NCBI RefSeq assembly: GCF_002843425.1
Contig: NZ_NKXO01000029.1
Coordinates: 1-48,255, forward strand
Direction of reading: 5' to 3'
Source: Raineya orbicola
GTDB taxonomy: Bacteria > Bacteroidota > Bacteroidia > Cytophagales > Thermonemataceae
Length of the DNA: 48,255 bases
A program made the translations under genes and the position numbers. The number at the start of each line of letters is the position of its first letter. Position 1 is the first letter of the stretch. Below, one piece after another: positions 20,753 through 34,801 of the stretch. The notes beneath the pieces were generated by a model that made no database searches, had not been told where the DNA came from, and worked only from the letters and a program-made list of their open reading frames with translations.

Positions 20753-22912
20753 ATGAAAAAGCTTCTATTTTTATGGTTTTTGCTTACAATTTTTATTCAC
20801 GCTTTTGGACAAGGCATACAGAACAACTCTTTATTTACGCAAATCCCTTCTCTTTCACAAAAAAATTACCGCACTCATTTACAAAAAGTTTATGAATTTC
20901 TGGCAAGTCAGAATAGGAATTTTCTTGAAAACAATGCTACCAAAATTTTAGACATATCGCTTCAAAACCCTTTTTGGGAAGTGCGAATTTATACACAAAT
21001 ATTGCTTGCCAAAGCTCTTTATCATAAGAACTCTCAAAAAAGTATTTCCATTGCCATAGATGCCTATTCCGTAGCGAAGGCAAGAAAGCTAACTTTTGAG
21101 TTAGCCGAAGCCTCAAAACTTTTAGCTTTTATCTATAACTATGCCCAAGATAATGAAAAAACTATCAGATATGCCTTGGAAGCCTCTGAAAACTACTTAA
21201 AATTAGATTTGTATGATGAGGTAACCTTTCTTTACTATGACATCGCTCTTACGCAATATCGTTTAGAAAATTATGAGTTGGCTTTGGGATATTTTCTTGA
21301 ACTTATCAAGAATCCAAATTTTGAAAAACTAATGCCCCGTGAGCAAATCAATACCTATAATGCCATTGCTTTGTGTTACAAAAAACTTCAAAATTTTTCT
21401 AAAGCCTTTGAGTATTTGAATAAGGCTATGGGAAAAGCCCTAAAGTTCAAAAGTGGGGTGTGGGTAGGGATTTTGCAAGGCAATAAGGGAGATGTATTTT
21501 TTGAGCAAAAACTTATAGATTCTGCTCGGTATTATTGGAAAATAGACTTGGATACCTGCCAAAAATATTCGGAGTGGCAAAACGTGGCTTCTACGCTCAC
21601 TTTCTATGCTCAAAGTTATGAGTATGAAAAAAACTATACACGAGCTTATCAGTATTACAAAGAAGCAGAAAAAATTTTACAAAAAACCAATCAGCCTGAA
21701 CTAATACATAAGATTAGAATTTATTCTGGACTTGCCAATGTTCTTTACTATTTAGATAGTATAAAATTGGCTTTTGAATATCAAAGGAAAGCACATCTTA
21801 CCCAAGACTCTCTGGAACGTTTTCAGAAAACCAATCAGGTTTTGCAAAGCCAACTCAAATTTTTATTACAAAACAAAGAGCAAAATTATCTACTTGAAAA
21901 AAAAGTAAATGAGCAGATAGATTTTTGGACAAGGGTAGGTATTGTTATTTTGTTTATTATCGTCTTGATTTTGGGGTATTTGCTACTAAGGCAAAGCCGT
22001 TTGAATAAAGTCATAGCCTTGCAAAAAATGAGAATAGAAGCTAAAAACGAGGAAATTAGCAGGCAGAATATTGAGCTTGCTGAAAAGAAACAAGAGGTAG
22101 AATCTCAACAGCAAACCATCGAGCGAGTTAATGAAATTTTGGAAAGATACACCAAAAATTTAGAAGAAGAAGTAGAAAAACGTACCCAAGAAATTCGTGA
22201 GAAAAATACAGCTCTGTTGCAGACGGTCAGTCAATTAGAGCAATTTTCCTATATCTTGGCTCATAACGTAAGAGCCCCTATTGCTCGCTTACAAGGGCTA
22301 TTGATGTGTTTGGATATGGGAAACATTAGTAACCCTCAAAATCTAAAAATTTTTGAATTTATCCAACAATCAGCCAAAGAACTTGATGATACGATTAAGA
22401 ATCTCAATACTATTATCCAAATCCGCAAGGGAGCGAATGAAATTTATGAGAAAGTAGATTTGAAAAGAAAAGTAGAAAAGCAGCGGGCTTCCGTAATAGA
22501 AGTTGGGGGAATTTTGGAAACTGACTTACAGGTGCGTTATGTATATGCTATCAAGGCTTATGTTGAAAGTATTTTTTACAATCTTATCAGCAATGCTATC
22601 AAGTACCGCGATATACAACGCCAACTCATAGTAAAGGTAAAAACCTATCAAGATGATACGTTTTTGTATGTAGAAGTAGAAGATAACGGAATAGGTATTG
22701 ATTTAGAGAAAAATAAGGATAAAATATTTGGCTTTTACAAAAGATTTCACGCTAACGTTGATGTAGAAGGCAAAGGAATAGGTTTGCATATCGTAAAATT
22801 GCAGGTAGAGGCAATGGGTGGGAAAATTGAAGTAGAAAGTGAACTGGGCAAAGGCACAAAGTTTAAGATGACTTTCAAGAAGCCTGTTCAAATTGATTGG
22901 GAGAATGTCTAA
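20753..22912 (+). CDS. TPR-containing membrane histidine kinase
   Basis: The 719-residue product has a Sec signal peptide (KLLFLWFLLTIFIHAFGQ), a periplasmic TPR array (about 25-375), one transmembrane helix near 394-416, a coiled coil, and a HisKA/HATPase_c core. The likely phosphoacceptor is His504 in LAHNVRAPIARLQG, which departs from the usual SHELR/SHDLR form. NLISNAIKYRD is the N box, DNGIGID the G1 box and GKGIGLHIVK the G2 box. The ATG at 20753 gives a proper signal peptide, whereas the longer frame from 20669 does not. Such TPR kinases are common in Bacteroidota; ligands are mostly unknown. Its 3' end overlaps the convergent O-antigen-ligase gene by 38 bp. Confidence 0.9.
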   Translation: MKKLLFLWFLLTIFIHAFGQGIQNNSLFTQIPSLSQKNYRTHLQKVYEFLASQNRNFLENNATKILDISLQNPFWEVRIYTQILLAKALYHKNSQKSISIAIDAYSVAKARKLTFELAEASKLLAFIYNYAQDNEKTIRYALEASENYLKLDLYDEVTFLYYDIALTQYRLENYELALGYFLELIKNPNFEKLMPREQINTYNAIALCYKKLQNFSKAFEYLNKAMGKALKFKSGVWVGILQGNKGDVFFEQKLIDSARYYWKIDLDTCQKYSEWQNVASTLTFYAQSYEYEKNYTRAYQYYKEAEKILQKTNQPELIHKIRIYSGLANVLYYLDSIKLAFEYQRKAHLTQDSLERFQKTNQVLQSQLKFLLQNKEQNYLLEKKVNEQIDFWTRVGIVILFIIVLILGYLLLRQSRLNKVIALQKMRIEAKNEEISRQNIELAEKKQEVESQQQTIERVNEILERYTKNLEEEVEKRTQEIREKNTALLQTVSQLEQFSYILAHNVRAPIARLQGLLMCLDMGNISNPQNLKIFEFIQQSAKELDDTIKNLNTIIQIRKGANEIYEKVDLKRKVEKQRASVIEVGGILETDLQVRYVYAIKAYVESIFYNLISNAIKYRDIQRQLIVKVKTYQDDTFLYVEVEDNGIGIDLEKNKDKIFGFYKRFHANVDVEGKGIGLHIVKLQVEAMGGKIEVESELGKGTKFKMTFKKPVQIDWENV

Positions 22913-24200
22913 GAAAAGCTATTCCATAAAAAATAGCAAAAACTATCACCCCATAATTCCTTTGCAGGTATGATTCTGTAAAGGCTGAAAAAAATAACAA
23001 TAGCCAAATGCTCAAAGCTAAGTAGTTTTTTTGTTGCCAAAGCATAGGCAAGGGTACCATAAACAAAGTTAGCCAAGCAAGCAAACCTATTATTCCTAAG
23101 GCAATCCAAATTTCAAAAAACTGATTATGGGCATTATATCGGTTGTATTGTGAGGCAAAATAAAATTTGTATTCATCATAAACTTTTTGCAATTCGTCCT
23201 GACCATCGCCTGTGCCAACCCCCCACAGCCAATTGCGTTTAATGAGTTCTAAGCCACAAGTCCATTGAGCAAAACGTAAAGAAGCTCCGTCCCAATTTCT
23301 ACCCAAGGAGTGGTCTTGTTTTTTATCTAAAACAATTCTTTCTTGTTTGTCCCATAAAAAACTAAAACGTTTGCGTGTGTTGGGGGTAAGTAAAATAGCG
23401 GTTATCAGAATACTAACCCCTACAATACTCCAAAATATTCCTTGCCAAATTTTATTTTGTTTTCGGAAGTATTCTAAAAAAATGAGAATTACGCCCAGTA
23501 TGAAAATACCAATTTGCATACGAGCCGCAAGCAGAAGCATTGTGAGTAAAAAAAAGCCAAGAAGTAAAATTTTCATTTTCTTTGCAGAAAATATGGAAAG
23601 ATATTCAGGAAAAAAAAGGTCTATAAGTAAAAAAAGATTAGCAAGACAAATGAGCATTGCTAAATAGGTAGGTTCGGCACGAAAAGCTGTAAAATTATGA
23701 TAGTAAAAATAATTTTCCCAATGAAAATTAGGATTATTCCAGTCTATTAAAACTCTATAAAATGCCCTTAAATAGCATAAGCAAACAAAAATAGTCGTTC
23801 CGATGATAAAAAGACGCAGATAATTCTGTAAAGTTGTCTTTTTTAAGGGAAAAATCTGCACTGAAAGTGGTAAAGACCACAAAGGCACTATTAAACCTAT
23901 CAAAAACCAGCCCCACTCAGTATTTTGGGTATAAAACATTCCTACAAAATGTAATAGCAGAAAAAAAGATAGCGAGAAAAATAAGTTTTTATGTTCCCAT
24001 AAATTTTTTCTATAATTTTGATGTAGCAAGAGAGCTATTATAGCATTGATGCCAATAATCACCCAAGCTACATTACGAGGAGCAGGAACATAAAAAGGCA
24101 GAGTAAGCAAAAATAAACTTACTAAAATTTCGTGTATAACTACTTGAATTGGCGTTTGAGCAAAGTAATTTTGAATTTTACTTTTCAGAATTGCAACCAT
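22875..24200 (-). CDS. O-antigen ligase / polymerase family membrane protein
   Basis: A very hydrophobic 441-residue protein with about 11-12 transmembrane helices and one large hydrophilic loop late in the sequence (about 275-355). In that loop the motif YNAHNQFFEIWIALGIIGLL matches the catalytic-loop region of the WaaL/Wzy family (PF04932), which transfers lipid-linked glycan to an acceptor or polymerises it. WaaL ligase and Wzy polymerase cannot be told apart by eye. It is divergent from the glycosyltransferase and epimerase genes at 24247-25979, and together these form a small surface-polysaccharide group. The 3' end overlaps the convergent kinase gene by 38 bp. Confidence 0.85.
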   Translation of the reverse strand: MVAILKSKIQNYFAQTPIQVVIHEILVSLFLLTLPFYVPAPRNVAWVIIGINAIIALLLHQNYRKNLWEHKNLFFSLSFFLLLHFVGMFYTQNTEWGWFLIGLIVPLWSLPLSVQIFPLKKTTLQNYLRLFIIGTTIFVCLCYLRAFYRVLIDWNNPNFHWENYFYYHNFTAFRAEPTYLAMLICLANLFLLIDLFFPEYLSIFSAKKMKILLLGFFLLTMLLLAARMQIGIFILGVILIFLEYFRKQNKIWQGIFWSIVGVSILITAILLTPNTRKRFSFLWDKQERIVLDKKQDHSLGRNWDGASLRFAQWTCGLELIKRNWLWGVGTGDGQDELQKVYDEYKFYFASQYNRYNAHNQFFEIWIALGIIGLLAWLTLFMVPLPMLWQQKNYLALSIWLLLFFSAFTESYLQRNYGVIVFAIFYGIAFLRHSPNQFEQAS

Positions 24201-24201
24201 T

Positions 24202-24233
24202 TTTGTTTTTTTGCGGTCAAAGATATAAATTTG
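24202..24233 (+). promoter_or_regulatory. Promoter of the glycosyltransferase-epimerase operon
   Basis: TTTG at 24202-24205, a 20-bp spacer, then TAAATTTG at 24226-24233. The GTG start at 24247 is only 14 bp past the -7 box, so the mRNA leader would be very short. Confidence 0.68.
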
Positions 24234-24246
24234 CGAAAAAAAACGA

Positions 24247-25008
24247 GTGGAAAACGCTGTTAAAGTTTTAGGTATACCGCTTTACAACCAAAATATACCA
24301 AGAGCAGTAGCCGAATTGATACGAATTTGTAAAGAGGAAAAACCCCAAAATCGCTTGGTCAGTGCTACAGGGGCTCACGGTTTGGTGTATGCTCAAGAAA
24401 ATGAAAATTTTGCCAAAATTTTACAGAACTTTTACTGGAATTTGCCAGACGGAATGCCCGGCGTATGGATAGGCAGGTGGAAAGGAGCTAAACAAATGCA
24501 AAGATGCTACGGACCCGGTTTTTTTGCTGAAACAATGCAAAAAACAGCAAGCACACCTATCAAACATTTTTTCTGCGGTGGGAAAGAAGGAGTTGCAGAG
24601 GAACTGAAAGAAAAATGTGGCAAAAAATTTGGCAATTACAACATAGTTGGAACATTTTGCCCTCCTTTTAGAGAAATGACAGATGAAGAAATGCGAGAGC
24701 TGGGGCATAAAATTCAAGAAAGTGGGGCAGAAGTTGTATGGATAGGTTTGAGTACGCCTAAACAAGAATTGTTTGCAACAAGGTTGGCTAAATTTGTAGA
24801 ATGTCATTTTATTATCACGGTGGGAGCGGCTTTTGATTTCCACACTGATAAAGTAAAACAAGCTCCTCGTTGGGTACAAAATATTGGTATGGAATGGTTT
24901 TTTCGTCTGCTGATGGAGCCGAAACGTTTGTACAAACGATATTTGCATATTGTACCAAAATTCATATACTTAAATTTTTTGGAATTTCTTAAACTACGAA
25001 AAGTATGA
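24247..25008 (+). CDS. WecG/TagA/CpsF-family glycosyltransferase (GT26)
   Basis: A 253-residue soluble enzyme of the GT26 family, which adds a sugar (N-acetylmannosaminyl or related) to an undecaprenyl-linked acceptor at the inner face of the membrane. Recognisable landmarks are SATGAHGLVYAQEN, LPDGMPGVWIGR, CYGPGFF and WIGLSTPKQELFATRLA, the last holding the family's conserved PKQE. Translation starts with GTG at 24247; there is no in-frame ATG upstream of the conserved region. The stop overlaps the start of the epimerase gene by 4 bp (ATGA), so the two are one operon driven by the promoter at 24202-24233. Confidence 0.9.
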   Translation: MENAVKVLGIPLYNQNIPRAVAELIRICKEEKPQNRLVSATGAHGLVYAQENENFAKILQNFYWNLPDGMPGVWIGRWKGAKQMQRCYGPGFFAETMQKTASTPIKHFFCGGKEGVAEELKEKCGKKFGNYNIVGTFCPPFREMTDEEMRELGHKIQESGAEVVWIGLSTPKQELFATRLAKFVECHFIITVGAAFDFHTDKVKQAPRWVQNIGMEWFFRLLMEPKRLYKRYLHIVPKFIYLNFLEFLKLRKV

Positions 25009-25979
25009 AAAAAGTTTTAGTTTGTGGTGCAGGTGGCTTTATTGGGGGTCATCTGGTAAAAAGATTAAAGCAAGAAGGTTTTTGGGTGCGTGGGGTAGAT
25101 TTGAAGCATCACGAATACACTCAATTGCCTGCCGATGAATTTATTATTGGCGATTTGCGTGACGTACAAGTATGTAAAGAGGTTTTGAAGGATATTGATG
25201 AAGTTTATCAACTTGCCGCTGATATGGGAGGAGCAGGCTATATTTTTACAGGAGAAAACGATGCCAATGTAATGCACAACTCGGCTACTATCAACCTAAA
25301 CATTGCCGATTTGGCTGTAAAAATGGGTGTAAAAAAGGTATTTTACTCATCTTCGGCTTGTATGTATCCTGCCTATAACCAAGAAGATCCTGATAATCCG
25401 AAATGTTCCGAAGATTCTGCTTATCCTGCCGCTCCTGATAGCGAATATGGCTGGGAAAAACTTTTCAGCGAAAGGTTATTTTTGGCGTACTATCGCAACT
25501 ATGGCTTGGAAGTTCGCATAGCTCGCTTTCATAATATTTTCGGACCTGAAGGCACTTGGCAAGGTGGTAAAGAAAAAGCTCCTGCCGCTATCTGCCGTAA
25601 AGTAGCCGAAGCAGAAGAAGGAGGCTTTATTGAAATATGGGGAGATGGCAAGCAGACGCGTTCTTTCCTTTACATTGATGAATGTATTGAGGCAGTTCGC
25701 CGACTAATGGAATCCGATTTTACGGGTCCTGTAAATATTGGTTCAGAAGAAATGATTAGCATCAATGGATTAGCGGAACTTGTAATGGATATTGCAGGTA
25801 AAAAACTTACTATCAAAAATATACCCGGTCCCGTAGGTGTGCGAGGCAGAAATTCTGATAATAAGCTAATACGTGAAAAATTAGGTTGGGATTATACAAT
25901 GACACTCCGCCAAGGGCTTGAAAAAACTTATGCTTGGATAAACCAGCAGGTACAAGCCAAAAAGAAAGTTGCGGTGTAG
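25005..25979 (+). CDS. GDP-mannose 3,5-epimerase homologue
   Basis: A 324-residue extended short-chain dehydrogenase with the NAD motif GAGGFIGG (8-15). It closely follows the plant enzyme GME, which converts GDP-D-mannose to GDP-L-galactose and GDP-L-gulose. Catalytic positions keep the same spacing: Cys119 (SSACMYP), Tyr148 and Lys152 (YGWEK), Lys191 (GGKEKAPAA) and Arg280 (GPVGVRGRN), corresponding to Cys145, Tyr174, Lys178, Lys217 and Arg306 of Arabidopsis GME. Other shared stretches are LAADMGG, RFHNIFGPEGTW and TRSFLYIDECIE. It is translationally coupled to the GT26 gene, so the product sugar probably enters a surface polysaccharide. Bacterial relatives may prefer other nucleotide sugars. 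Confidence 0.85.
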   Translation: MKKVLVCGAGGFIGGHLVKRLKQEGFWVRGVDLKHHEYTQLPADEFIIGDLRDVQVCKEVLKDIDEVYQLAADMGGAGYIFTGENDANVMHNSATINLNIADLAVKMGVKKVFYSSSACMYPAYNQEDPDNPKCSEDSAYPAAPDSEYGWEKLFSERLFLAYYRNYGLEVRIARFHNIFGPEGTWQGGKEKAPAAICRKVAEAEEGGFIEIWGDGKQTRSFLYIDECIEAVRRLMESDFTGPVNIGSEEMISINGLAELVMDIAGKKLTIKNIPGPVGVRGRNSDNKLIREKLGWDYTMTLRQGLEKTYAWINQQVQAKKKVAV

Positions 25980-26037: not shown

Positions 26038-28618
26038 ACACCAAGTCATCTTCGGGGTTACCGATTTCATATTCAATTCTATTGAAGCGAGGAGGTTCTT
26101 CTGGAATTTTAATGGCAGGTTTAGCAGGAAACAGATAATTTTTTAAGGCTTTTTCAAAAGGGGCAATTAGCGAAGCCAATACTACGTTGGCAATTACTTT
26201 GAAAATAGGAATATTGCCTGTGTAGCTTTCTACGAAGTTTTCAATATACACGCTCACAAACTCAAAAAGCATCAGCATTGTGGTAAAGGCTAAAATAATA
26301 GTATAGCGTGAATTTTTACGAGTAAGTCCTAAATAAACGGAAACAATTACCAAAGTTAAGAAAAAAGAAACCTGTGCTAAATAAAACCACCATTTTTCCC
26401 AATAGGGTAAATCTATTCTGAACTTAAACATTATAGGTTGTGGGTTCATTTCGTCATCACTATTGTAAGAACGCACATAAAATGTATAAACTCCCGGTGG
26501 TAAATTGGTATAAGTTGCAGTATTTTGCTCACTTTTTTCCGACCATTCTTTTTCAAAACCTTCTAATTTGTACTGATACTTAATTCTTTCGGGTACGGTG
26601 AAATGCACACCGACAAACTCAAAAGTGATGCTGTTTTCATTGTGAGCAAGTTTTACAGCTATGCCATCAGAAATTTCACTTAACGGAATAGCAAAATCGG
26701 GGTCTAAAAGTTTGGCATATTTGCTCCAATCAGTTTTTCGGTTGAATAGTTTGACATCAATCAGGTGTAAAGTAGGCGGGTTTTTATTAGGTACATCTTC
26801 ATAAGGTAGGTATTTTATAATTCCATTAAACGTGCCAATCCAAAGATTTTGACGAGAGTCTTTGAAAAGTGCATTGGGGAAGGTTTGCATCAGCGAAAAG
26901 CCATCTATGTAGCTGTAGTTTTTTACTTTTTTTGTTTTGGGGCTAAATCTATCAATGCCATTTCGGTGTCCTGTCCAGATATTGCCTTCACTATCAACAA
27001 TCACACTCCACAGATTTTGAGAAGCGAATCCATCTTTTTCGGTATAACATATAAAACAATTGGTATCTTTGGGGCTGGCATTGGGCTTCATTTGGCAAAG
27101 CCCATTTTCAGTAGCGAGCCAAATCGTACCTTGGGCATCTTGGGCAATAGAAAGTACAATGTTATTAGCCAAACCATTTTGGGTAGTAAAGTTTGTAAAA
27201 ATACCATTTCGGAAACGGCTCAATCCTTTGTAAGTGCCAAACCATAGATTACCTTTTCCATCGCTTAAAGCACAACGAACATAGTTATCCGCAAGCCCTT
27301 GATTTTCGGAAAAAGTAGTGATTTTCCCGTCCTTTTCAATACGAGCTACTCCTTTATCAGTGCCAGCCCATATTCGGTTTTGTTCATCTTCTACAAGACA
27401 ATAAATGGTATTATCTCGCAAACCATCGGCAGTTGTAAAATTTTTGTAACGAGTGCCGTCATATTGCCAAAGTCCTTCTCCTACCGAGCCAATCCAAAGA
27501 TTTTTTTTATCTTTGTCCCAAAGCAAAGAACGCACATTAAGGGCTTTTTTTTCAGAAAATTTTTTGCTTTTAATATCATAGGTGAGCAGACGCTCGTTAG
27601 TGCCAATCCAGATGAGTTGCTTGTCATCTTCGGTAAAAGCACGGATAGGTTTATCGTAAATGAGTGGTTCATTAAAGGTAATAAAACGTCTATTATTGAT
27701 TTTAGAAATGCCTTTATTGCTTCCAAACCAAAAATTAAAATTTTTATCTTGCCAAATACAATTGAGATTATCGCTTGAAAGTCCGTTTTGAGTAGTGAGA
27801 TGTTCTAATAAAAATCCGTCTTGCAAAACAAAAGCACCTTCATCAGATACGAGCCATACTTTACCTTCCTTATCGCAAAGTCCTGCTGAAATTTCTCCTT
27901 TGATACCTTTCAATTCACCAAAAAACTGAAATTCGCCTGAAATATTATCTAATTTGTAAGCTCCTAACGGAGTTCCAAACCAGAGATTGAGTTTTTTATC
28001 TTGAAAAATGCAATGAATAGCAGTGCTAACAATTCCATCGTGTACGTTGTAAGTCTTAATTTTTTTGCCGTCATAGCTTGCCAGTCCGTTATCAGTTCCT
28101 ATCCATAGAATATTGCGGTGGTCAAAATGAAGTGAATGAATAGTATTGTGTGGCAATCCTTGAAAGGTTGTAAAGTTAGAAAAGCGTTTGCCATCATATT
28201 TGCTCAAACCTTCGTTGGTTGCACACCAAATATTCCCGTTTTTATCTTCTAAAATAAAATTGACATCATCATCAACTAATCCATTCTTTTCAGTAAAAAC
28301 TTCAAAATGTTCGCCGATAAGCCTTGCGATACCCTGACGAGTAGCTACCCAAATATGGTAGTTTTTATCTTCAATGACACACTTGACGAGATTGCTGAGT
28401 AGCCCTTGCGTAGTGGAATATTTGTAGAACTTTCTGCCGTCAAATTTACAAACACCGCCTTGGGTAGCAATCCAGATAAAAGAATTATGGTCTTCGGCGA
28501 TATAATTAACATTTTCTTCGGGCAGTCCTTCAATCAAACCATAATGCCGAAATGGATATACTTGTGCCACTGCGGGCAAAGCCAAAATCCAAGCCAAAAA
28601 TAACAGGTATCTCATCAT
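26036..28618 (-). CDS. Reg_prop/Y_Y_Y periplasmic propeller sensor without kinase domain
   Basis: The 860-residue product has a signal peptide (cleavage near ALPAVAQ), then about 14 short repeats of the form 'D..NIWxATxxGLxxYDGxxFxxxTxxxGLxxN' that build two beta-propellers (about 25-620), and a Y_Y_Y immunoglobulin-like domain (about 650-736, ending YTFYVRSYNSDDE). In the hybrid two-component systems of Bacteroidota this head is followed by a histidine kinase or an adenylate cyclase. Here it is followed by about three transmembrane helices (744-825) and a short cytoplasmic tail, with no HisKA, HATPase or receiver. It is cotranscribed with the upstream lipoprotein gene (11-bp gap). It may signal through a separate kinase. 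Confidence 0.85.
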   Translation of the reverse strand: MMRYLLFLAWILALPAVAQVYPFRHYGLIEGLPEENVNYIAEDHNSFIWIATQGGVCKFDGRKFYKYSTTQGLLSNLVKCVIEDKNYHIWVATRQGIARLIGEHFEVFTEKNGLVDDDVNFILEDKNGNIWCATNEGLSKYDGKRFSNFTTFQGLPHNTIHSLHFDHRNILWIGTDNGLASYDGKKIKTYNVHDGIVSTAIHCIFQDKKLNLWFGTPLGAYKLDNISGEFQFFGELKGIKGEISAGLCDKEGKVWLVSDEGAFVLQDGFLLEHLTTQNGLSSDNLNCIWQDKNFNFWFGSNKGISKINNRRFITFNEPLIYDKPIRAFTEDDKQLIWIGTNERLLTYDIKSKKFSEKKALNVRSLLWDKDKKNLWIGSVGEGLWQYDGTRYKNFTTADGLRDNTIYCLVEDEQNRIWAGTDKGVARIEKDGKITTFSENQGLADNYVRCALSDGKGNLWFGTYKGLSRFRNGIFTNFTTQNGLANNIVLSIAQDAQGTIWLATENGLCQMKPNASPKDTNCFICYTEKDGFASQNLWSVIVDSEGNIWTGHRNGIDRFSPKTKKVKNYSYIDGFSLMQTFPNALFKDSRQNLWIGTFNGIIKYLPYEDVPNKNPPTLHLIDVKLFNRKTDWSKYAKLLDPDFAIPLSEISDGIAVKLAHNENSITFEFVGVHFTVPERIKYQYKLEGFEKEWSEKSEQNTATYTNLPPGVYTFYVRSYNSDDEMNPQPIMFKFRIDLPYWEKWWFYLAQVSFFLTLVIVSVYLGLTRKNSRYTIILAFTTMLMLFEFVSVYIENFVESYTGNIPIFKVIANVVLASLIAPFEKALKNYLFPAKPAIKIPEEPPRFNRIEYEIGNPEDDLV

Positions 28619-29152: not shown

Positions 29153-32100
29153 ATGCTCGGAGAAATATTTAGCAAAATCGCTTCGGGAGCAGTGGTAGGC
29201 TATACTACCAACGACCTTGCCGTCAAGATGCTTTTTCGCAAAAAGTTTGGTTTGGGCGGGATTGTTCTCAAAACACACCAACAATTTGTAGAAAATATTA
29301 GCAAACTTGTGGAACGTGAAATTATCAATCACCACACGCTTGCTAAAGAATTTGATAGCCCTGCTTTCAAAAATGCTATTGAACAAAGTGTTCAAGATTT
29401 TTACACCGAGCATTTGAGTCAAATCCTTCAAAATACTCATTTTGCCGATATTCCGCTTGCCGAAAATTCTTGGGATAATTTGAGCGAAGTGCTTTGCCAA
29501 ATTTTACAAATACAATTGCAAAGCCACTTACAACATTTTTGGCAGTTTATAGAAATCAAGGACTTACTTTCTGTTCAGCAGATTGAGCATATCAGTCAGT
29601 ATATTAGCGAAAAAATAGCTGAGTTACCTTCGGAGATAGATTTGGAAAGTTCTTTACAACGTCTCATTCAGGGGGTTAGTGAAAATAGCTTGCAAGATAT
29701 TTTTGGAGAAATTTTTGTACAAAGGCTCTCTGAAAATGTGCAGAAAATCATTGCAAGTTATTATGATTTTTTACTGCAAACCCCTTCTGAGGTTCTCATA
29801 CCTTTTTCGCAAGCATTTTTACGAAACATAGAAATTGAACGTTTTGTAAAACTTTTTTCTCAAAGCCTTACTCAAAAAGAAATTGACCAACTCATTTCAG
29901 TTGAGCAGTTTCATCTGATTGTTGCAGAGGTTTTGAAGCAAATTCATCAACTTCTTAACTCTCATAAAGGGAAACTGATTACCCAAACGCTTGCTAAATT
30001 TGTAATAGAAACGCTCCGTAACGAGCATACTACCATTTTTGAACTGCTCAATCCTTCCTTAGAGCAAGAATTTGAAAGTTTTTTACGAAGACATCTGCCT
30101 CGTATTTTACGGAGGTTCATTGCATATATTCAAGCCCAAAAAAGCAAAATAGATAGTCTTATAGACCAAACCTTCCGAGATAATACACAATTCGCCCTGC
30201 AAGAGTGGCTTTTAGATATTTTTATTGGCAGTGTGAGTGAGCAGGCTCAGGTAGTACGGCGAATTATTGAATTTATTGAAAACTACGATACGGGCGAGCT
30301 TGCCCAAATGGTTACGGAGTATTTGATTAGCTATCTGAAAGGCAACACTATCAGCGAAATTATCAAAAAAATAGATAATCAGAAAGCAATTGATTTTCTT
30401 ACAGAAAGTTTGCTCAAAAATTTCAACGAAATTCTTTCTCAAATACAACCTATTCATTTTGATAGATACTTACAGCGAAAAATTGCTGATTTTATTAGCT
30501 CTGCACAGGTAGAAGTTTTTTTGCAAAAACAGATTCAAAAGATTCGTGAAAGTGCTTGGCTTCACAATCTTTTACGAGAGCTTCGCTTTGAAAAAATTCT
30601 GATTGCCAAAATTCAGGAAAAACAAGAAAATTTTACTAAAACTGCCCTAAAAAGCATTTTTTCTGAAACCAAATTCAACGAGCTTGCTCACTGGCTTTCG
30701 CAAAAAGCTCAAAAAAAACTACAAGAAAAGGAGGTAAAGCAGAAAATTCAAGATTTTTTGAAAATACAAATTAGCAAAAATCTTGAAAAAGTACAATTAC
30801 AGAATTTTTTCTCCGAAGCTGAAAATCAAGAATTGGCTGATAAATTTACGAAACAACTTCGTAAAGTGTTGAAGGATTATTGGCAAAATATTCATCAGGA
30901 AAACCTAAAAAAATATCTCCCTTTCCTGAATGCAGATGTTACTTTACATCAGAAAACTGCTGATTATCTACAAAAAACCTTGCTTTTAGAACTTGAAAGC
31001 CTACTTAAAGGACGCATAGAAGCCCTTGTGAAGCAAAATCTTGCCCCCTTGCCTCCTGAACGCATACGCGATATGGTAGAGAATTTTATGGGTAGGGAAG
31101 TGGCTCCCATCAATGTACTGGGAGCTATCTTGGGGGCAGGGGTAGGCGGGATACTTGCCGCATTACCTACTTTGTCAAATCCTTATTGGGCAAATACTTT
31201 GAACGGCTTGGTCTATGGCATTACGGGTTATGGGACAAATTGGCTTGCCTTGCGAATGATTTTTCGTCCTTATGAAGCCAAGCGTATAGCAGGGCTGAAA
31301 TTACCTTTTACGCCGGGCATTATCACTAAAAATAAAAGTCGTTTTGCTCAAAATATGGGCAAATTTGTTCAGCAAAGCCTTTTGAATCGTGAAAGCATTG
31401 TCAATAATTTTCACGGAAGCCGAAAAGTATTGAGAGATTCGCTCCTGCGAATGATTGCCCAAGATGATTATGCTCTTTTGCAAAGAACGCTTACGCAAAA
31501 CGAAAAAGCTATCAGTGAATATTTGCAAGCAAAAGCCAATTACTTTCTTGATAATCAGCAAGAATCAATTTGGAAAAGTATAGAAAAACAACTGCAAAAG
31601 TTACTAAAAAATAATTTGAGCAACTTAGATACCAGCACGCTCAAAAATGCAGTCAAGACGCAAATCAATTCGCAAAAAATGCTTTTGCAAAATGAAAACG
31701 TACTTACAGAAATTTTAGGACTTGGCAAAAAAGCCCCCAAACACCTTGCCGACCTTCTGCCCGAAGGTACTTGGGAAACTACCGAAAAGCTATTAGATAC
31801 TTTTCTCAAAGAAAATATAAGCCGTTTTGTAAAACAGGAAAATACTCATTTGTGGCTTCCGCCATTGCAAAACTATCTTTGGCAGGAATATCAAAAAATT
31901 ATCATACGTAAGATTTCCGAAATTTTACACAAAAATCAAATAGAAGAACTAAAAACGCAATTTGCAGACTTTTTACGCAAGCAAATGCGTAGCGAAAAAA
32001 CACAAGAAAAAGTTTTTGAAGGGGTTTCCAAAAGGCTATACAGCGAAATTCACCCTGAACGAAAAATTAGTGAGTTGTTGGGAGGAAGAATCATTGATTT

Positions 32101-33238
32101 TCTGCGAGAGAATGCTATTTCGCTTGTAAAAAATCTTATCCAAAAAGGCTTAGATTGGCTCAATGAACACAAAAGAGAATTGGCTAATGAAGTGTATGAA
32201 CGTGCCTATGAGGAAAACCGAGCGGCGTTTATTTACAAAACGGTTATCAGAGAAACGGTTTTAGAACTTTGTGAATATGGCATACCTCGTTTTTTCCGAC
32301 AGCAAATGCCTGAAATTGAACTTACTTTGGAGCAAGAAATTGATAAAATCGGGCAAATTCAACTATCCGAACTCAATATTCGTGCAAATGACGAGGCTCT
32401 CCGCCGATGGATTAGCAATTTTCTGAATAATCAAGATTTACAGCACACCACAGGCAAAATTGCTGAAATTTTCTTGGAATATAGCCTTTTGGAAACGCCA
32501 CTTTTAGATTTTGTGAAAAATGAGGATATTTTAGGTTTGAAAAATCTTTCGTCAAAATTTGCCCCTGAAATTGCTTTACTGCAAAGTCATTTAGAGTATT
32601 TATTGAACGAAAAACCTATTTTTACGCAACATACTGCTCATTTTATTACGCAAAATATGCGAGCCTTTGCCGAAAATTACGCTCAACACTGGATTAGCGA
32701 GGATAGCACCCTCATTGCCCGAAAAATTGCAGAGTATATTTTGCAGAGCAAAGTATTTGAGGAAGAGAAAAATAAATGGATTGATGAGGCTTTTCGCTTG
32801 TTCAAAGCGGAAAGTTTGGAAAATTACTTGCAAACGGAAACTTTACTAAGCGACTTACATCAGGCGTTTGTTAAAATTATTCAAAAACCCGAAGTGAGGA
32901 TTTTTTTGCAAGAACGCATTTCTGCGATTACTCACGAGCTATTGCCTAAAATCTTGCCTAATATCTCGCCTTCTACCAAAGAATATTTGGCTTTTCAAAT
33001 TTTAGAGGCGGTCTTTGAGGCGTTAGACGATAATTTGCCCCAAATTTTGCTTTCTATTGATTTGCACCGAGTGGTAGTGGAGGAAATAGAAGCAATGCAC
33101 CCCAAAGAAGTAGAAGCACTTTTTTACAGCTTTGCGTCAATTTATTTCCGCGAACTTATCAATTATGGGTTTGGCTTTGGGGTAGTTTTTGGCTTGGCTA
33201 TGGATGGTTTTTTGCAAGGAATAGCTATGTTTTTCTAA
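29153..33238 (+). CDS. Giant tandem DUF445-family membrane protein
   Basis: The 1361-residue product contains two copies of the DUF445 entry motif. The first, GYTTNDLAVKMLF, is at 16-28, right at the N-terminus. The second, GYGTNWLALRMIF with LPFTPGIITKNKSRFAQNMG after it, is near 690-735, preceded by a glycine-rich membrane segment (GAILGAGVGGILAALP). The C-terminus ends in a further membrane segment (FGFGVVFGLAMDGFLQGIAMFF). Between them lie long amphipathic helices with many short I/L-x-x-I/L and Q/K-rich repeats. Ordinary DUF445 proteins are about 400 residues, with an N-terminal and a C-terminal membrane hairpin around a helical domain. Function is unknown. The gene has its own promoter and no operon partner. 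Confidence 0.82.
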   Translation: MLGEIFSKIASGAVVGYTTNDLAVKMLFRKKFGLGGIVLKTHQQFVENISKLVEREIINHHTLAKEFDSPAFKNAIEQSVQDFYTEHLSQILQNTHFADIPLAENSWDNLSEVLCQILQIQLQSHLQHFWQFIEIKDLLSVQQIEHISQYISEKIAELPSEIDLESSLQRLIQGVSENSLQDIFGEIFVQRLSENVQKIIASYYDFLLQTPSEVLIPFSQAFLRNIEIERFVKLFSQSLTQKEIDQLISVEQFHLIVAEVLKQIHQLLNSHKGKLITQTLAKFVIETLRNEHTTIFELLNPSLEQEFESFLRRHLPRILRRFIAYIQAQKSKIDSLIDQTFRDNTQFALQEWLLDIFIGSVSEQAQVVRRIIEFIENYDTGELAQMVTEYLISYLKGNTISEIIKKIDNQKAIDFLTESLLKNFNEILSQIQPIHFDRYLQRKIADFISSAQVEVFLQKQIQKIRESAWLHNLLRELRFEKILIAKIQEKQENFTKTALKSIFSETKFNELAHWLSQKAQKKLQEKEVKQKIQDFLKIQISKNLEKVQLQNFFSEAENQELADKFTKQLRKVLKDYWQNIHQENLKKYLPFLNADVTLHQKTADYLQKTLLLELESLLKGRIEALVKQNLAPLPPERIRDMVENFMGREVAPINVLGAILGAGVGGILAALPTLSNPYWANTLNGLVYGITGYGTNWLALRMIFRPYEAKRIAGLKLPFTPGIITKNKSRFAQNMGKFVQQSLLNRESIVNNFHGSRKVLRDSLLRMIAQDDYALLQRTLTQNEKAISEYLQAKANYFLDNQQESIWKSIEKQLQKLLKNNLSNLDTSTLKNAVKTQINSQKMLLQNENVLTEILGLGKKAPKHLADLLPEGTWETTEKLLDTFLKENISRFVKQENTHLWLPPLQNYLWQEYQKIIIRKISEILHKNQIEELKTQFADFLRKQMRSEKTQEKVFEGVSKRLYSEIHPERKISELLGGRIIDFLRENAISLVKNLIQKGLDWLNEHKRELANEVYERAYEENRAAFIYKTVIRETVLELCEYGIPRFFRQQMPEIELTLEQEIDKIGQIQLSELNIRANDEALRRWISNFLNNQDLQHTTGKIAEIFLEYSLLETPLLDFVKNEDILGLKNLSSKFAPEIALLQSHLEYLLNEKPIFTQHTAHFITQNMRAFAENYAQHWISEDSTLIARKIAEYILQSKVFEEEKNKWIDEAFRLFKAESLENYLQTETLLSDLHQAFVKIIQKPEVRIFLQERISAITHELLPKILPNISPSTKEYLAFQILEAVFEALDDNLPQILLSIDLHRVVVEEIEAMHPKEVEALFYSFASIYFRELINYGFGFGVVFGLAMDGFLQGIAMFF

Positions 33239-33695
33239 AAATAATTACATAAATTCTTTGAAAAATTTAATTTTTGAAAAAAGTTTGAAAAAAGTTTAGG
33301 CTTGCTATATCATTGCACCAAGAAATTTTTGAGCTCAAAATTTCGAGTTTTATGTTTAAATATTTAATAACACAGAGAGAAAAAGATTATATTCTGATTT
33401 TTTTGCAAATAGCAATTGGTTCAACAGGGTATTGGAATAAAAACTTATACAAATGGAATAACTTGTTTTCTCAAAATTCGTCTTGAAGATGTTGTGGCTT
33501 AGGTGGCAAAAAAGCAATCAAATCTGATATTTCTGGTGAAGTAGGACGAATTGCTGGTGCCATTGTTGGAGATTCTGTATCTTTTGGAGTTTTAGCCGTG
33601 CGAGGTTGGGCTGTAAGATTAATCAGTAGAGAGATAGGTGTTTTCCGCTAAATCTGTAGTTGATGATTTATTAAATTATTCTAATCCATAAGTTT
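33239..33695. other. AT-rich stretch without an intact gene
   Basis: After the DUF445 stop there is an 11-bp tandem repeat of GAAAAAAGTTT (33276-33297), an AT-rich palindrome TTTTGAGCTCAAAA (33327-33340), and a short open frame with no start codon (33487-33651, listed separately). No terminator with a GC-rich stem is visible. The codon pattern looks degraded, so I read it as a scar beside the IS remnant. Confidence 0.5.
33487..33651 (+). pseudogene. Remnant frame encoding a Gly/Ala-rich segment
   Basis: Fifty-four codons open after a TGA at 33484-33486 and end at TAA 33649-33651, without ATG, GTG or a plausible start. The translation includes GGKKAIKSDISGEVG followed by RIAGAIVGDSVSFG, a glycine-zipper-like hydrophobic stretch of the kind found in bacteriocin-like or pore-associated peptides, and ends VRLISREIGVFR. 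The biased composition suggests a former coding region. No function is claimed. Confidence 0.3.
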
Positions 33696-33878
33696 ATGAA
33701 AGTTTTACTTAAAATAATTGTACTTATACTAACATACATTTTATTTTCTTGGTTAGTTATGTATTTTTTGGATAGAGAGTATGCTTTGAGCTACAAATAT
33801 TTAAGATTTGCGATATTATCAAGCCTATTGTATGTAATTGTAATGTACTTTATTATTAGAAAAAAAATGTTAAATTAA
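33696..33878 (+). CDS. Small two-helix membrane protein
   Basis: This 60-residue ORF encodes two hydrophobic helices (about 3-25 and 36-53) separated by a charged turn (LDREYALSYKYLR), with a basic tail RKKMLN. That topology is typical of small inner-membrane proteins such as immunity proteins or regulators. It directly precedes the deleted IS (element end at 33877, overlapping the stop codon by 2 bp), so the gene's 3' end may be partly IS-derived. There is no clear promoter. It is a plausible but unproven gene. Confidence 0.45.
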   Translation: MKVLLKIIVLILTYILFSWLVMYFLDREYALSYKYLRFAILSSLLYVIVMYFIIRKKMLN

Positions 33879-34207
33879 CTTGAGTTATGAGCTTAACTAA
33901 TTGATTTTAAGATATTTATACAAAAATTTTAGAGCAATTGTAGAAAGAGCTATATTTGTAGTTGTACTTTTCTAATCACTTAAACCAATAGCCTAATGAA
34001 ACGACTTGCTCTAAATTCTATAAAATTAGTAGATGCTTTTGTATCCATATATGACTTTTTGAAAGAATTTAACCCTATCCTGCAAGCACATCTTGTAAGA
34101 AAACAAATGGACAATAATTGTAAAAAATAGAACATTCAAAGCAAAAAAGTCTTATCAATTTTTATCGAAATTGTACTTTGCAAAGAAATCGCAGCATAAC
34201 TCACTTT
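33877..34207 (+). mobile_element. Internally deleted copy of the same IS (MITE-like, about 331 bp)
   Basis: The left end AACTTGAGTTATGA (33877-33890) and right end GCATAACTCACTTT (34194-34207) are imperfect inverted repeats (11 of 14) and resemble the element end AACTCACGTT found at both window edges. Inside are a transposase N-terminal remnant (33996-34130) and, just before the right end, codons reading LCKEIAA-stop, which parallel ELFQDIAA-stop of the edge copies. The whole middle of the transposase is missing, so it could only move in trans. Confidence 0.6.
33996..34130 (+). pseudogene. Transposase N-terminal remnant
   Basis: The frame is ATG to TAG, 44 codons, beginning MKRLALNSIKLVDAF and continuing FLKEFNPILQAHLVRK. 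It lies about 105 bp inside the left end of the deleted element, where a transposase start is expected. A separate frame after it carries the C-terminal codons that end with the TAA at 34198-34200. No catalytic residues remain. Family not assigned. Confidence 0.45.
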
Positions 34208-34481
34208 ATTCAAATATTTTATGGTATATTGATGATAAAAAAATACAGAAACGTAGATTTTAGGTTTCAGCAACACTTGAAATTATCGCTAATTTGCTTG
34301 AATTTCATTTGCTTGTTTAATTTTTGAAAAAAATAGTAACTTATACAAGTTTATGATTTTCAGGTATATAACTCCCCTCTCCTTTGGAGAGGGGTTGGGG
34401 GTGAGGTTAAGAAATGGCAAATTTTGGTAGAAAGCTCAATAATTTTTTATTCTTAAATTTTTGTTTTTCAGTTACTTGACT
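34208..34481. other. Intergenic DNA between two IS-type ends
   Basis: AT-rich, with no open frame of note. The only distinctive element is the GC-rich hairpin repeat at 34372-34408. Because both flanks look like the same IS end (34194-34207 and 34482-34495), this could be the right part of a second, more decayed copy. Confidence 0.4.
34372..34408 (+). repeat. GC-rich palindromic repeat of a type dispersed in Bacteroidota genomes
   Basis: CCCCTCTCC (34374-34382) and GGAGAGGGG (34386-34394) form a perfect 9-bp stem with a TTT loop, followed by the tail TTGGGGGTGAGGTT. The GC content stands out sharply from the AT-rich surroundings. From memory, close variants of this 35-40 bp sequence occur as many dispersed copies in genomes of Bacteroidota and some other phyla. 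A repetitive extragenic palindrome mobilised in trans is the likely nature. Confidence 0.65.
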
Positions 34482-34495
34482 TCATAACTCACGTT
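34482..34495 (-). repeat. Isolated IS end
   Basis: TCATAACTCACGTT is the inverted copy of the left end at 33877-33890 with 13 of 14 matching bases, and it contains the intact AACTCACGTT terminus seen at the two window edges. It may be the true right partner of the left end, or the remains of another copy. Confidence 0.55.
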
Positions 34496-34510
34496 AGTTT
34501 AATAATAAAA

Positions 34511-34533
34511 TGCTTGAAATAAAATTTCAAGCA
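34511..34533. terminator. Perfect 10-bp hairpin next to the isolated IS end
   Basis: TGCTTGAAAT (34511-34520) and ATTTCAAGCA (34524-34533) with a 3-base loop, followed by TTTTAT. It has terminator form on the plus strand, but no plus-strand gene ends just before it. Confidence 0.5.
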
Positions 34534-34598
34534 TTTTATATTCACCAAAAAAATGATATTTTTATGAAATTGTTTAATTTATTTATTATCTATGTTTT

Positions 34599-34748
34599 AT
34601 GTCTATATTATTGATTTTTTTTGATAGCATAAAACTTATAAGAAAACAAGGCTTTATAAATTTCTGGCAATCTCCCGAGAGAAAATATCAAATCCTTTTG
34701 CTATTTATATCTATTTGGATAATTTTAAGAAAATTAGAAAAGTTTTAG
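34599..34748 (+). CDS. Very small hydrophobic ORF
   Basis: A 49-residue frame, ATG to TAG, encodes a short hydrophobic start (SILLIFFDSIKLI), a polar turn (FWQSPERKYQ) and a second hydrophobic helix (ILLLFISIWIILRKL). It is followed 13 bp later by a terminator (34762-34793), which supports transcription through it, but that terminator may belong only to the convergent tryptophan dioxygenase gene. No ribosome-binding site or promoter is clear. Treat as tentative. Confidence 0.3.
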   Translation: MSILLIFFDSIKLIRKQGFINFWQSPERKYQILLLFISIWIILRKLEKF

Positions 34749-34761
34749 GAAAAGAGCAAAA

Positions 34762-34793
34762 GACAACGTCACTTGCGGTGATGTTGTCTTTTT
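34762..34793. terminator. Terminator after tryptophan 2,3-dioxygenase (bidirectional)
   Basis: An 11-bp stem (34762-34772 with 34778-34788; one G-T pair) and a 5-base loop, with TTTTT on the plus side and TTTT on the minus side. It lies 9 bp past the stop of the minus-strand gene. Its stem core is closely related to the hairpin at 47161-47195. Confidence 0.8.
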
Positions 34794-34801
34794 GTAATAA
34801 T

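Follow-up and report, generated by a model that had tools for sequence, protein, structure and literature searches.

A long two-unit form of the DUF445 family in Raineya orbicola and its possible role as a membrane-rooted spacer

The long gene and its two units

Raineya orbicola, a bacterium that grows as long filaments (PMC5982127), is placed in the Raineyaceae within the Cytophagales. The stretch of its genome analysed here, referred to as the window, comprises 48,255 nucleotides (RefSeq assembly GCF_002843425.1, contig NZ_NKXO01000029.1, positions 1 to 48,255 of the forward strand) and contains, at 29153-33238 of the forward strand, an open reading frame (ORF) that begins with ATG and encodes a protein of 1361 amino acids (Table 1). 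An hmmscan of this protein revealed DUF445 (PF04286) as the sole Pfam family above its cut-off (E 4e-49; 168.9 bits against a cut-off of 33.8; five matching stretches), and an NCBIfam scan gave no match at E up to 1. Distant orthologs of the long form also pass the DUF445 cut-off, at 156-191 bits in all three that were tried. The family is present in E. coli, B. subtilis, C. glutamicum and S. elongatus, which served as search controls, and a single DUF445 gene was found in the 3.07-Mb genome of R. orbicola, with all three family-search matches falling inside it.

The nearest named relatives of the protein, from Raineya sp. SKYG86 and an uncultured Cytophagales bacterium, are each 78% identical to it. 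Comparison of the gene with a full-length relative of the same identity (L075) revealed no insertion or deletion over 1361 codons and a ratio of nonsynonymous to synonymous substitution (dN/dS) of 0.114, ranging from 0.04 to 0.18 by section, with a high dS (0.6-1.9). Across 40 sequences, the window's included, lengths run from 1355 to 1414 amino acids at identities down to 24%; a script set each start at the closest suitable codon ahead of the motif, which makes the equality of their N-termini partly a matter of construction. The conserved length, the low dN/dS and the lack of indels rule out a fusion artefact or a missed stop codon, which the original prediction had named as a possible undoing of its claims. 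The long DUF445 gene is real and conserved, and its product is a new variant of a known family without known function. In the literature on DUF445 and its named members, as represented by titles, the openings of abstracts and single passages, no function was found for any DUF445 protein, which agrees with what the sequence-based prediction had assumed. One apparent mention of the family, in PMC3355149, is a false match to DUF4453/4454.

Two DUF445 units had been proposed to lie within one chain, and the alignment of the two halves bears this out: residues 1-672 align end to end with residues 648-1361 (hhalign, E 1.5e-25, 617 columns). Judged by sequence, the long protein is thus a tandem duplication of a DUF445 unit of ~680 residues, rather than one unit of ~400 residues; size is not a Pfam requirement. 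Each unit is laid out as a weak membrane helix carrying a GYxTN motif, a helical arm of ~635 residues, and a closing membrane helix. The two features by which DUF445 is recognised, a TN-type motif in the first membrane helix and a C-terminal membrane helix closing the unit, are thus both present twice, the motif with the cores GYTTN (16-20) and GYGTN (692-696).

Anchoring of the chain at multiple points is probable, with the correction that four membrane-type segments were counted where three had been proposed. Lower peaks of family-average hydropathy, at 21-39 (0.94) and 353-371 (0.75), were left out of this count. In the window sequence by itself, hydropathy exceeds 1.0 only at 653-671, 1103-1121 (1.12) and 1342-1361; the motif helices are weak there, and their assignment therefore draws on the alignment and the unit homology. 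Within the arms, regular repeats were also considered. Off-diagonal hhalign matches occurred (E down to 3.7e-15), with irregular spacing and no period that stood out, and repeats are not claimed because amphipathic helices can yield such matches.

Table 1. Features of the long DUF445 gene, with coordinates in the window.
Feature	Residues	Position	Strand	Evidence
Long DUF445 gene (stop included)		29153..33238	+	ORF; PF04286 E 4e-49; dN/dS 0.114, no indel vs L075
Membrane-type segment N1 (weak), runs into first motif	1-19	29153..29209	+	family-average hydropathy 1.17
First GYTTNDLAVKMLF motif	16-28	29198..29236	+	translation; G16 Y17 T19 N20 A23 M26 L27 F28 invariant, 40/40 rows
Arm 1 rising shaft, low conservation	61-280	29333..29992	+	information profile; 4.04-residue period
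Arm 1 conserved mid-arm tip region, mirror point ~341	281-400	29993..30352	+	model, information profile, covariation
Arm 1 returning shaft	401-615	30353..30997	+	information profile, period, covariation
Membrane segment C1	653-671	31109..31165	+	family-average hydropathy 1.70
Membrane-type segment N2 (weak)	682-700	31196..31252	+	family-average hydropathy 0.96
Second GYGTNWLALRMIF motif	692-704	31226..31264	+	translation; G692 T695 N696 A699 M702 F704 invariant, 40/40 rows
Arm 2 rising shaft	746-940	31388..31972	+	information profile, period, covariation
Arm 2 conserved mid-arm tip region, mirror point ~1019	941-1060	31973..32332	+	models, information profile, covariation
Arm 2 returning shaft	1061-1295	32333..33037	+	information profile, period, covariation
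Membrane segment C2	1340-1358	33170..33226	+	family-average hydropathy 1.80

Conservation and predicted fold of the arms

The information content of 20-residue blocks separates the bases, mostly at 1.7-2.65 bits with peaks at about 1-60, 620-740 and 1300-1350, from the shafts, mostly at 0.9-1.4 bits. Conservation rises again in the middle of each arm, to 1.7-1.9 bits at 281-400 and 1.45-2.0 bits at 941-1060. With residues 341 and 1019 taken as turning points, the four shafts have mean lengths of 325.6, 311.6, 326.1 and 327.3 residues in 48 orthologs (three partial sequences of 51 left out), with standard deviations (s.d.) of 5.1-6.8 and extremes of 304 and 351. One conserved stretch at the tip of arm 1, residues 353-371, is hydrophobic (hydropathy 0.75) and lies in the least confident part of the model described below; it is a possible site of contact with the membrane or a partner.

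The long amphipathic helical regions foreseen in the original prediction were recovered, with a mean hydrophobic moment of 0.303 in the arm helices of the window protein against 0.221 (s.d. 0.009) in shuffled sequence. The hydrophobic period of the shafts is 4.0 residues, with a peak at 89-90 degrees and per-ortholog medians of 89-90 (n=48), compared with 103 for a synthetic heptad. By section, it is 4.0 residues in five of the six arm sections, tip 2 being at 90 degrees, and 3.75 residues (96 degrees) in tip 1. The whole-chain peak, 1.65 in height at 90 degrees, exceeds those of all 154 neighbouring control frames of at least 300 codons, the highest of which reached 1.57 at 100 degrees. From this period, and from a whole-chain peak above the controls, it follows that the arms are not ordinary coiled coils. 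Other DUF445 classes peak at 88 degrees (200-aa), 91 degrees (YjiN-like) and 93-95 degrees (two-unit and mid-motif); given the first two values, a period of about four residues is common to much of DUF445 and not peculiar to the long form.

AlphaFold2 models built from 50 sequences were nearly all helix, both for residues 1-1200 (mean predicted local distance difference test, pLDDT, 76.1; predicted template modelling score, pTM, 0.41) and for residues 640-1361 (78.6 and 0.34). Segments of at least three residues below pLDDT 50 were confined to 351-357 and 359-364, at the tip of arm 1, in the first model and were absent from the second. Two ordinary domains joined by disorder are thereby ruled out, the low-confidence stretches being few and not at the joint. 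DSSP assigned helices, isolated bridges and one short hairpin in both models. In arm 1 of the 1-1200 model, isolated bridge residues at 96, 134, 179, 243 and 294 mirror others at 399, 443, 498, 548 and 584, with sums, from the outside in, of 680, 682, 677, 686 and 693, and one more lies at 299. In arm 2, residues 864, 920 and 971 mirror 1070, 1116 and 1177 (sums 2041, 2036 and 2041), with one more at 1078; the 640-1361 model repeats 920/1116 and 971/1070 and lacks 864/1177. We infer the pairing of these residues, and the length of the resulting rod, from the models.

Covariation was averaged along antiparallel registers, with the bridge sums of the models already in hand. Shaft-only maxima fell at a sum of 685 in arm 1 (275 sums scanned) and 2038 in arm 2 (280 scanned); a first, unfiltered run and a second one, from which conserved and gappy columns had been removed, gave the same two values. 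An antiparallel hairpin within each arm, with predicted turns near 341 and 1019, is thus supported by prediction and covariation. The antiparallel arrangement suggested beforehand is accordingly supported within each unit rather than between the two. The elongated shape, fixed to the membrane at several points, is probably correct.

In comparisons of both models with known structures, Foldseek found no row below E 0.001 and VIA-align none with Z of at least 8, negatives that do not extend to families missing from these libraries. Of the 50 VIA-align rows for the 1-1200 model, 31 run from 297-349 to 1012-1087 and fall onto helical bundles, BAR domains and transporters, with Z of at most 6.8. 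These rows suggest a model in which the two tips pack together, though weakly, given these Z values and a pLDDT near 50 in tip 1. Among sequences of known structure there was no DUF445 entry; a profile search up to E 1 listed 13 rows, four of them below 0.01, one named as a designed helical repeat protein and three carrying what we take to be design-type names. A profile search with a short paralog (L044) found none up to E 1.

Several known systems invite comparison. The cytoplasmic rods of chemoreceptors are long, antiparallel, membrane-rooted hairpins with a conserved tip, which the long form would resemble, and the best structural alignment of the second-half model, to 3g67_A (Z 7.6, root-mean-square deviation 16.8, 173 residues aligned), is centred near the arm-2 tip, at a Z below what is meaningful for helical rods. 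Chemoreceptor rods are heptad coiled coils, however, whereas the shafts of the long form peak at 89-90 degrees without a heptad period, and the long protein has no Pfam match to the chemoreceptor (methyl-accepting chemotaxis protein, MCP) signalling domain. The arms of SMC, MukB and Rad50 are likewise elongated, antiparallel and helical, and MukB comes first, without significance (E 5e-3, prob 0.20), among the Foldseek rows for the 1-1200 model. Those proteins carry ABC-type ATPase heads, for which the long form has no Pfam match; the long form, in contrast, is without heptads and is anchored in the membrane. Bridge-like lipid transfer proteins of the AsmA/VPS13 type are built around a beta-sheet groove. 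Both models are nearly all helix and lack the beta groove of these lipid carriers; there is also no Pfam match of this type.

Distribution, related forms and gene neighbourhood

The surveys of the order, class and phylum were made on samples, with few candidates scored per genome, and their scope is this phylum. Of the 291 genomes sampled from the order, 57 match; four have frames of 202 to 409 residues only, and 53 have the long form. This range, which had been singled out for survey, covers five families: the long form occurs in 8/8 genomes of the window's family, where one copy is cut by a contig end, and in 13/13, 13/15, 9/11 and 10/18 genomes of four further families. These counts include one genome in which the frame is interrupted (G540) and three in which the gene is split over contigs or cut (G503, G536 and G527). 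In G540 (contig C277, family f68), the long gene is both interrupted by stops and split, by assembly error or decay. The window's own frame was the only long one listed in the class sample (295 genomes) and the phylum sample (395 genomes), the others reaching at most 530 residues. Among the matches listed in a Pfam search of the phylum sample, one frame of 758 residues begins with unrelated upstream sequence. A plasmid collection gave one local match, in a Listeria record (residues 683-749, E 7e-8).

Shorter DUF445 proteins were grouped into 28 single 200-aa, 14 two-unit, 16 mid-motif and 30 YjiN-like sequences; the names YjiN-like, mid-motif and 200-aa are those of this analysis. Genomes of family f72 can encode three sizes at once, for example frames of ~200, ~410 and 1380-1410 amino acids in G452. 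None of the four genomes of the window's genus shows a short paralog, whereas the family's remaining four genomes have one, in frames of 408-415 amino acids. Ordinary single-unit members share the base of the long form (a TN-type motif, replaced by AD in the YjiN-like class, a first membrane helix, a helical arm and a closing membrane helix), but have one unit instead of two and arms of ~155-340 residues instead of ~635. From motif to closing helix, the long form measures 627-676 residues, compared with 155-165 in the 200-aa single and 410-aa two-unit proteins, 221-247 in mid-motif proteins and 328-340 in YjiN-like ones. Scaling of arm length by integers (1:2:4) was dropped, as the mid-motif class falls between.

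The two-unit paralogs of ~410 amino acids (L042-L045 and others) are like the long form in having tandem units, two motifs and a middle pair of membrane segments, with arms about a quarter as long. In the 14 that were examined the motifs lie 197-206 residues apart, and the two units are homologous to each other (E 7.4e-15). The double motif noted at the outset is therefore present, but it does not mark the long form, to which only the arms are special. The 200-aa single unit aligns with the two ends of each long unit; in unit 1 these are 10-163 and 527-672, and the middle of unit 1 is left unmatched, so that the long unit resembles an ordinary base into which much has been inserted. Trees on a shared duplication of the long and short two-unit forms gave a support of 44 for u1+u2, with p values of 0.58 for u1+dA and 0.19 for u2+dB in the approximately unbiased (AU) test.

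The neighbours of the long gene in the window are a propeller protein, a small helical protein and a tryptophan-dioxygenase-like gene, with polysaccharide genes further off. The propeller protein (26039-28618, reverse strand) is an 860-aa protein of the two-component-regulator type with a Y_Y_Y domain, in which a kinase domain was not found. At 22878-25976, an O-antigen-ligase-like gene on the reverse strand, a WecG/TagA/CpsF glycosyltransferase and a sugar epimerase lie next to one another. Immediately 3' of the long gene, 1.56 kb (33239-34801) without an ORF above 60 amino acids has the look of inserted or decayed sequence; in the relative L047, the next gene begins 6 bp after the long gene. 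A G-rich repeat element at 34381-34406 has 13 copies in the genome (up to three mismatches), 12 of them on contig C8 at 39.3-50.3 kb. The widest neighbour cluster, of the SpoIIE-phosphatase type, occurs at 9 of 40 loci in three families and is adjacent to the long gene in only four loci of one genus; the window's member of this cluster matches SpoIIE.

A possible cytoplasmic spacer and its alternatives

In arm-side stretches of 19-26 residues, lysine plus arginine (K+R), with aspartate plus glutamate (D+E) in brackets, averages 4.18 (2.14) and 4.25 (3.33) at the first two membrane segments and 5.14 (0.53) after the third, over 51 sequences; the 12-residue loop between the middle pair of segments averages 0.16 K+R and 0.92 D+E. 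By the positive-inside rule, this distribution suggests that the arms are cytoplasmic.

The reading that we favour, tentatively and at somewhat below an even chance, is that the protein is a membrane-rooted spacer that holds a tip-bound partner at a fixed height. The protein would be a covalent pair of membrane-rooted helical hairpin arms, each running out for ~320 residues, turning near 341 or 1019 and running back, so that the conserved middle would form the tip. From hydropathy and charge, there would be four membrane segments, the arms being cytoplasmic and both termini and the middle loop lying outside. The base shared with ordinary DUF445 proteins would root the spacer in the inner membrane, the conserved tips would bind a cytoplasmic partner and hold it at a set distance from the membrane, and ordinary members of the family may do the same job over shorter distances. 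A more elaborate version, which we consider doubtful, has the two arms standing next to each other as a rod with four shafts and a fixed height, made of helices with a four-residue period that do not form coiled coils, with the two tips as one composite binding head. Such a protein would be an intracellular, membrane-rooted ruler or stalk of an undescribed kind, and DUF445 paralogs of other sizes would be shorter rulers in the same cell.

A number of observations weigh against the spacer. The helices of the models are fairly confident, while their low pTM values leave the overall shape unsure. The covariation set consists of 48 sequences with an effective number of 29 and is much the same alignment as that given to AlphaFold2, and the covariation is therefore support rather than proof; in the filtered wide scan of arm 1, moreover, an edge register (545) scores above 685. 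Small changes in length do not covary, as no covarying indels were found between shafts. A hint of contact between the arms in the unfiltered data, at the returning shafts (register 678 against 683 expected, z 2.5), was gone after filtering. The topology is read from charge alone, and before the last membrane segment K+R (2.47) and D+E (2.55) are not net positive over the 51 sequences. Across 40 loci no gene recurs beside the long gene from one family to another, so that neighbours name no partner. Finally, the conserved hydrophobic stretch 353-371 of tip 1, least confident at 351-364, may touch the membrane rather than a soluble partner.

That last point also speaks for an alternative in which the amphipathic arms form a monolayer coat or stabiliser along the membrane's inner face rather than standing off it. 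The moment of the arm helices, beyond that of shuffled sequence (0.303 versus 0.221), is consistent with such a coat, as is ApoB100 (E 0.025, prob 0.30), which tops the Foldseek rows for the second-half model without reaching significance. We regard it as unlikely, as the conserved mid-arms, mirrored bridges and antidiagonal covariation point to helix-on-helix packing, and a coat would not need constancy of length. That constancy, in the form of the ~320-residue shafts, is left unexplained, together with the conserved mid-arm regions, by a reading in which the membrane base is the active part, its paired TN motifs acting within the bilayer as a polar site for transport or for handling lipids, with arms that are regulatory or mere spacers. 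The most conserved positions do sit in the bases, and the 200-aa forms have only short arms of ~160 residues; DUF445 alone, however, passes its Pfam cut-off, and an active base also appears improbable to us.

The original prediction had suggested a helical bridge or tether, perhaps in envelope organisation or lipid transfer; on this view the arms would stand in the periplasm and reach the outer membrane or cell wall. Several membrane anchors and a probably elongated shape are in keeping with this, and E. coli YjiN is tabulated as an inner-membrane protein whose value in an Spr (murein endopeptidase) mutant is +5.96 (PMC7774453). Only a slim chance is left to this view. The charge bias on the arm side, with K+R of 4.2-5.1 at three helices against 0.16 in the middle loop, is the main reason for doubt, and the models contain no beta groove. 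Least probable, and already disfavoured, is that an ordinary DUF445 protein was lengthened by neutral drift and that its length has no function. The family has no known function and the shafts are the most variable part of the protein, but dN/dS is 0.08-0.18 in each arm section, albeit at a high dS (0.9-1.9), and the s.d. of shaft length is about 2% over deep divergence.

The long form separates base, shaft and tip within one sequence, and together with the graded sizes of its paralogs it gives a vaguely defined family parts that can be tested. If its arms do act as a cytoplasmic ruler, the long DUF445 protein would represent a new bacterial way of setting distance from the membrane.

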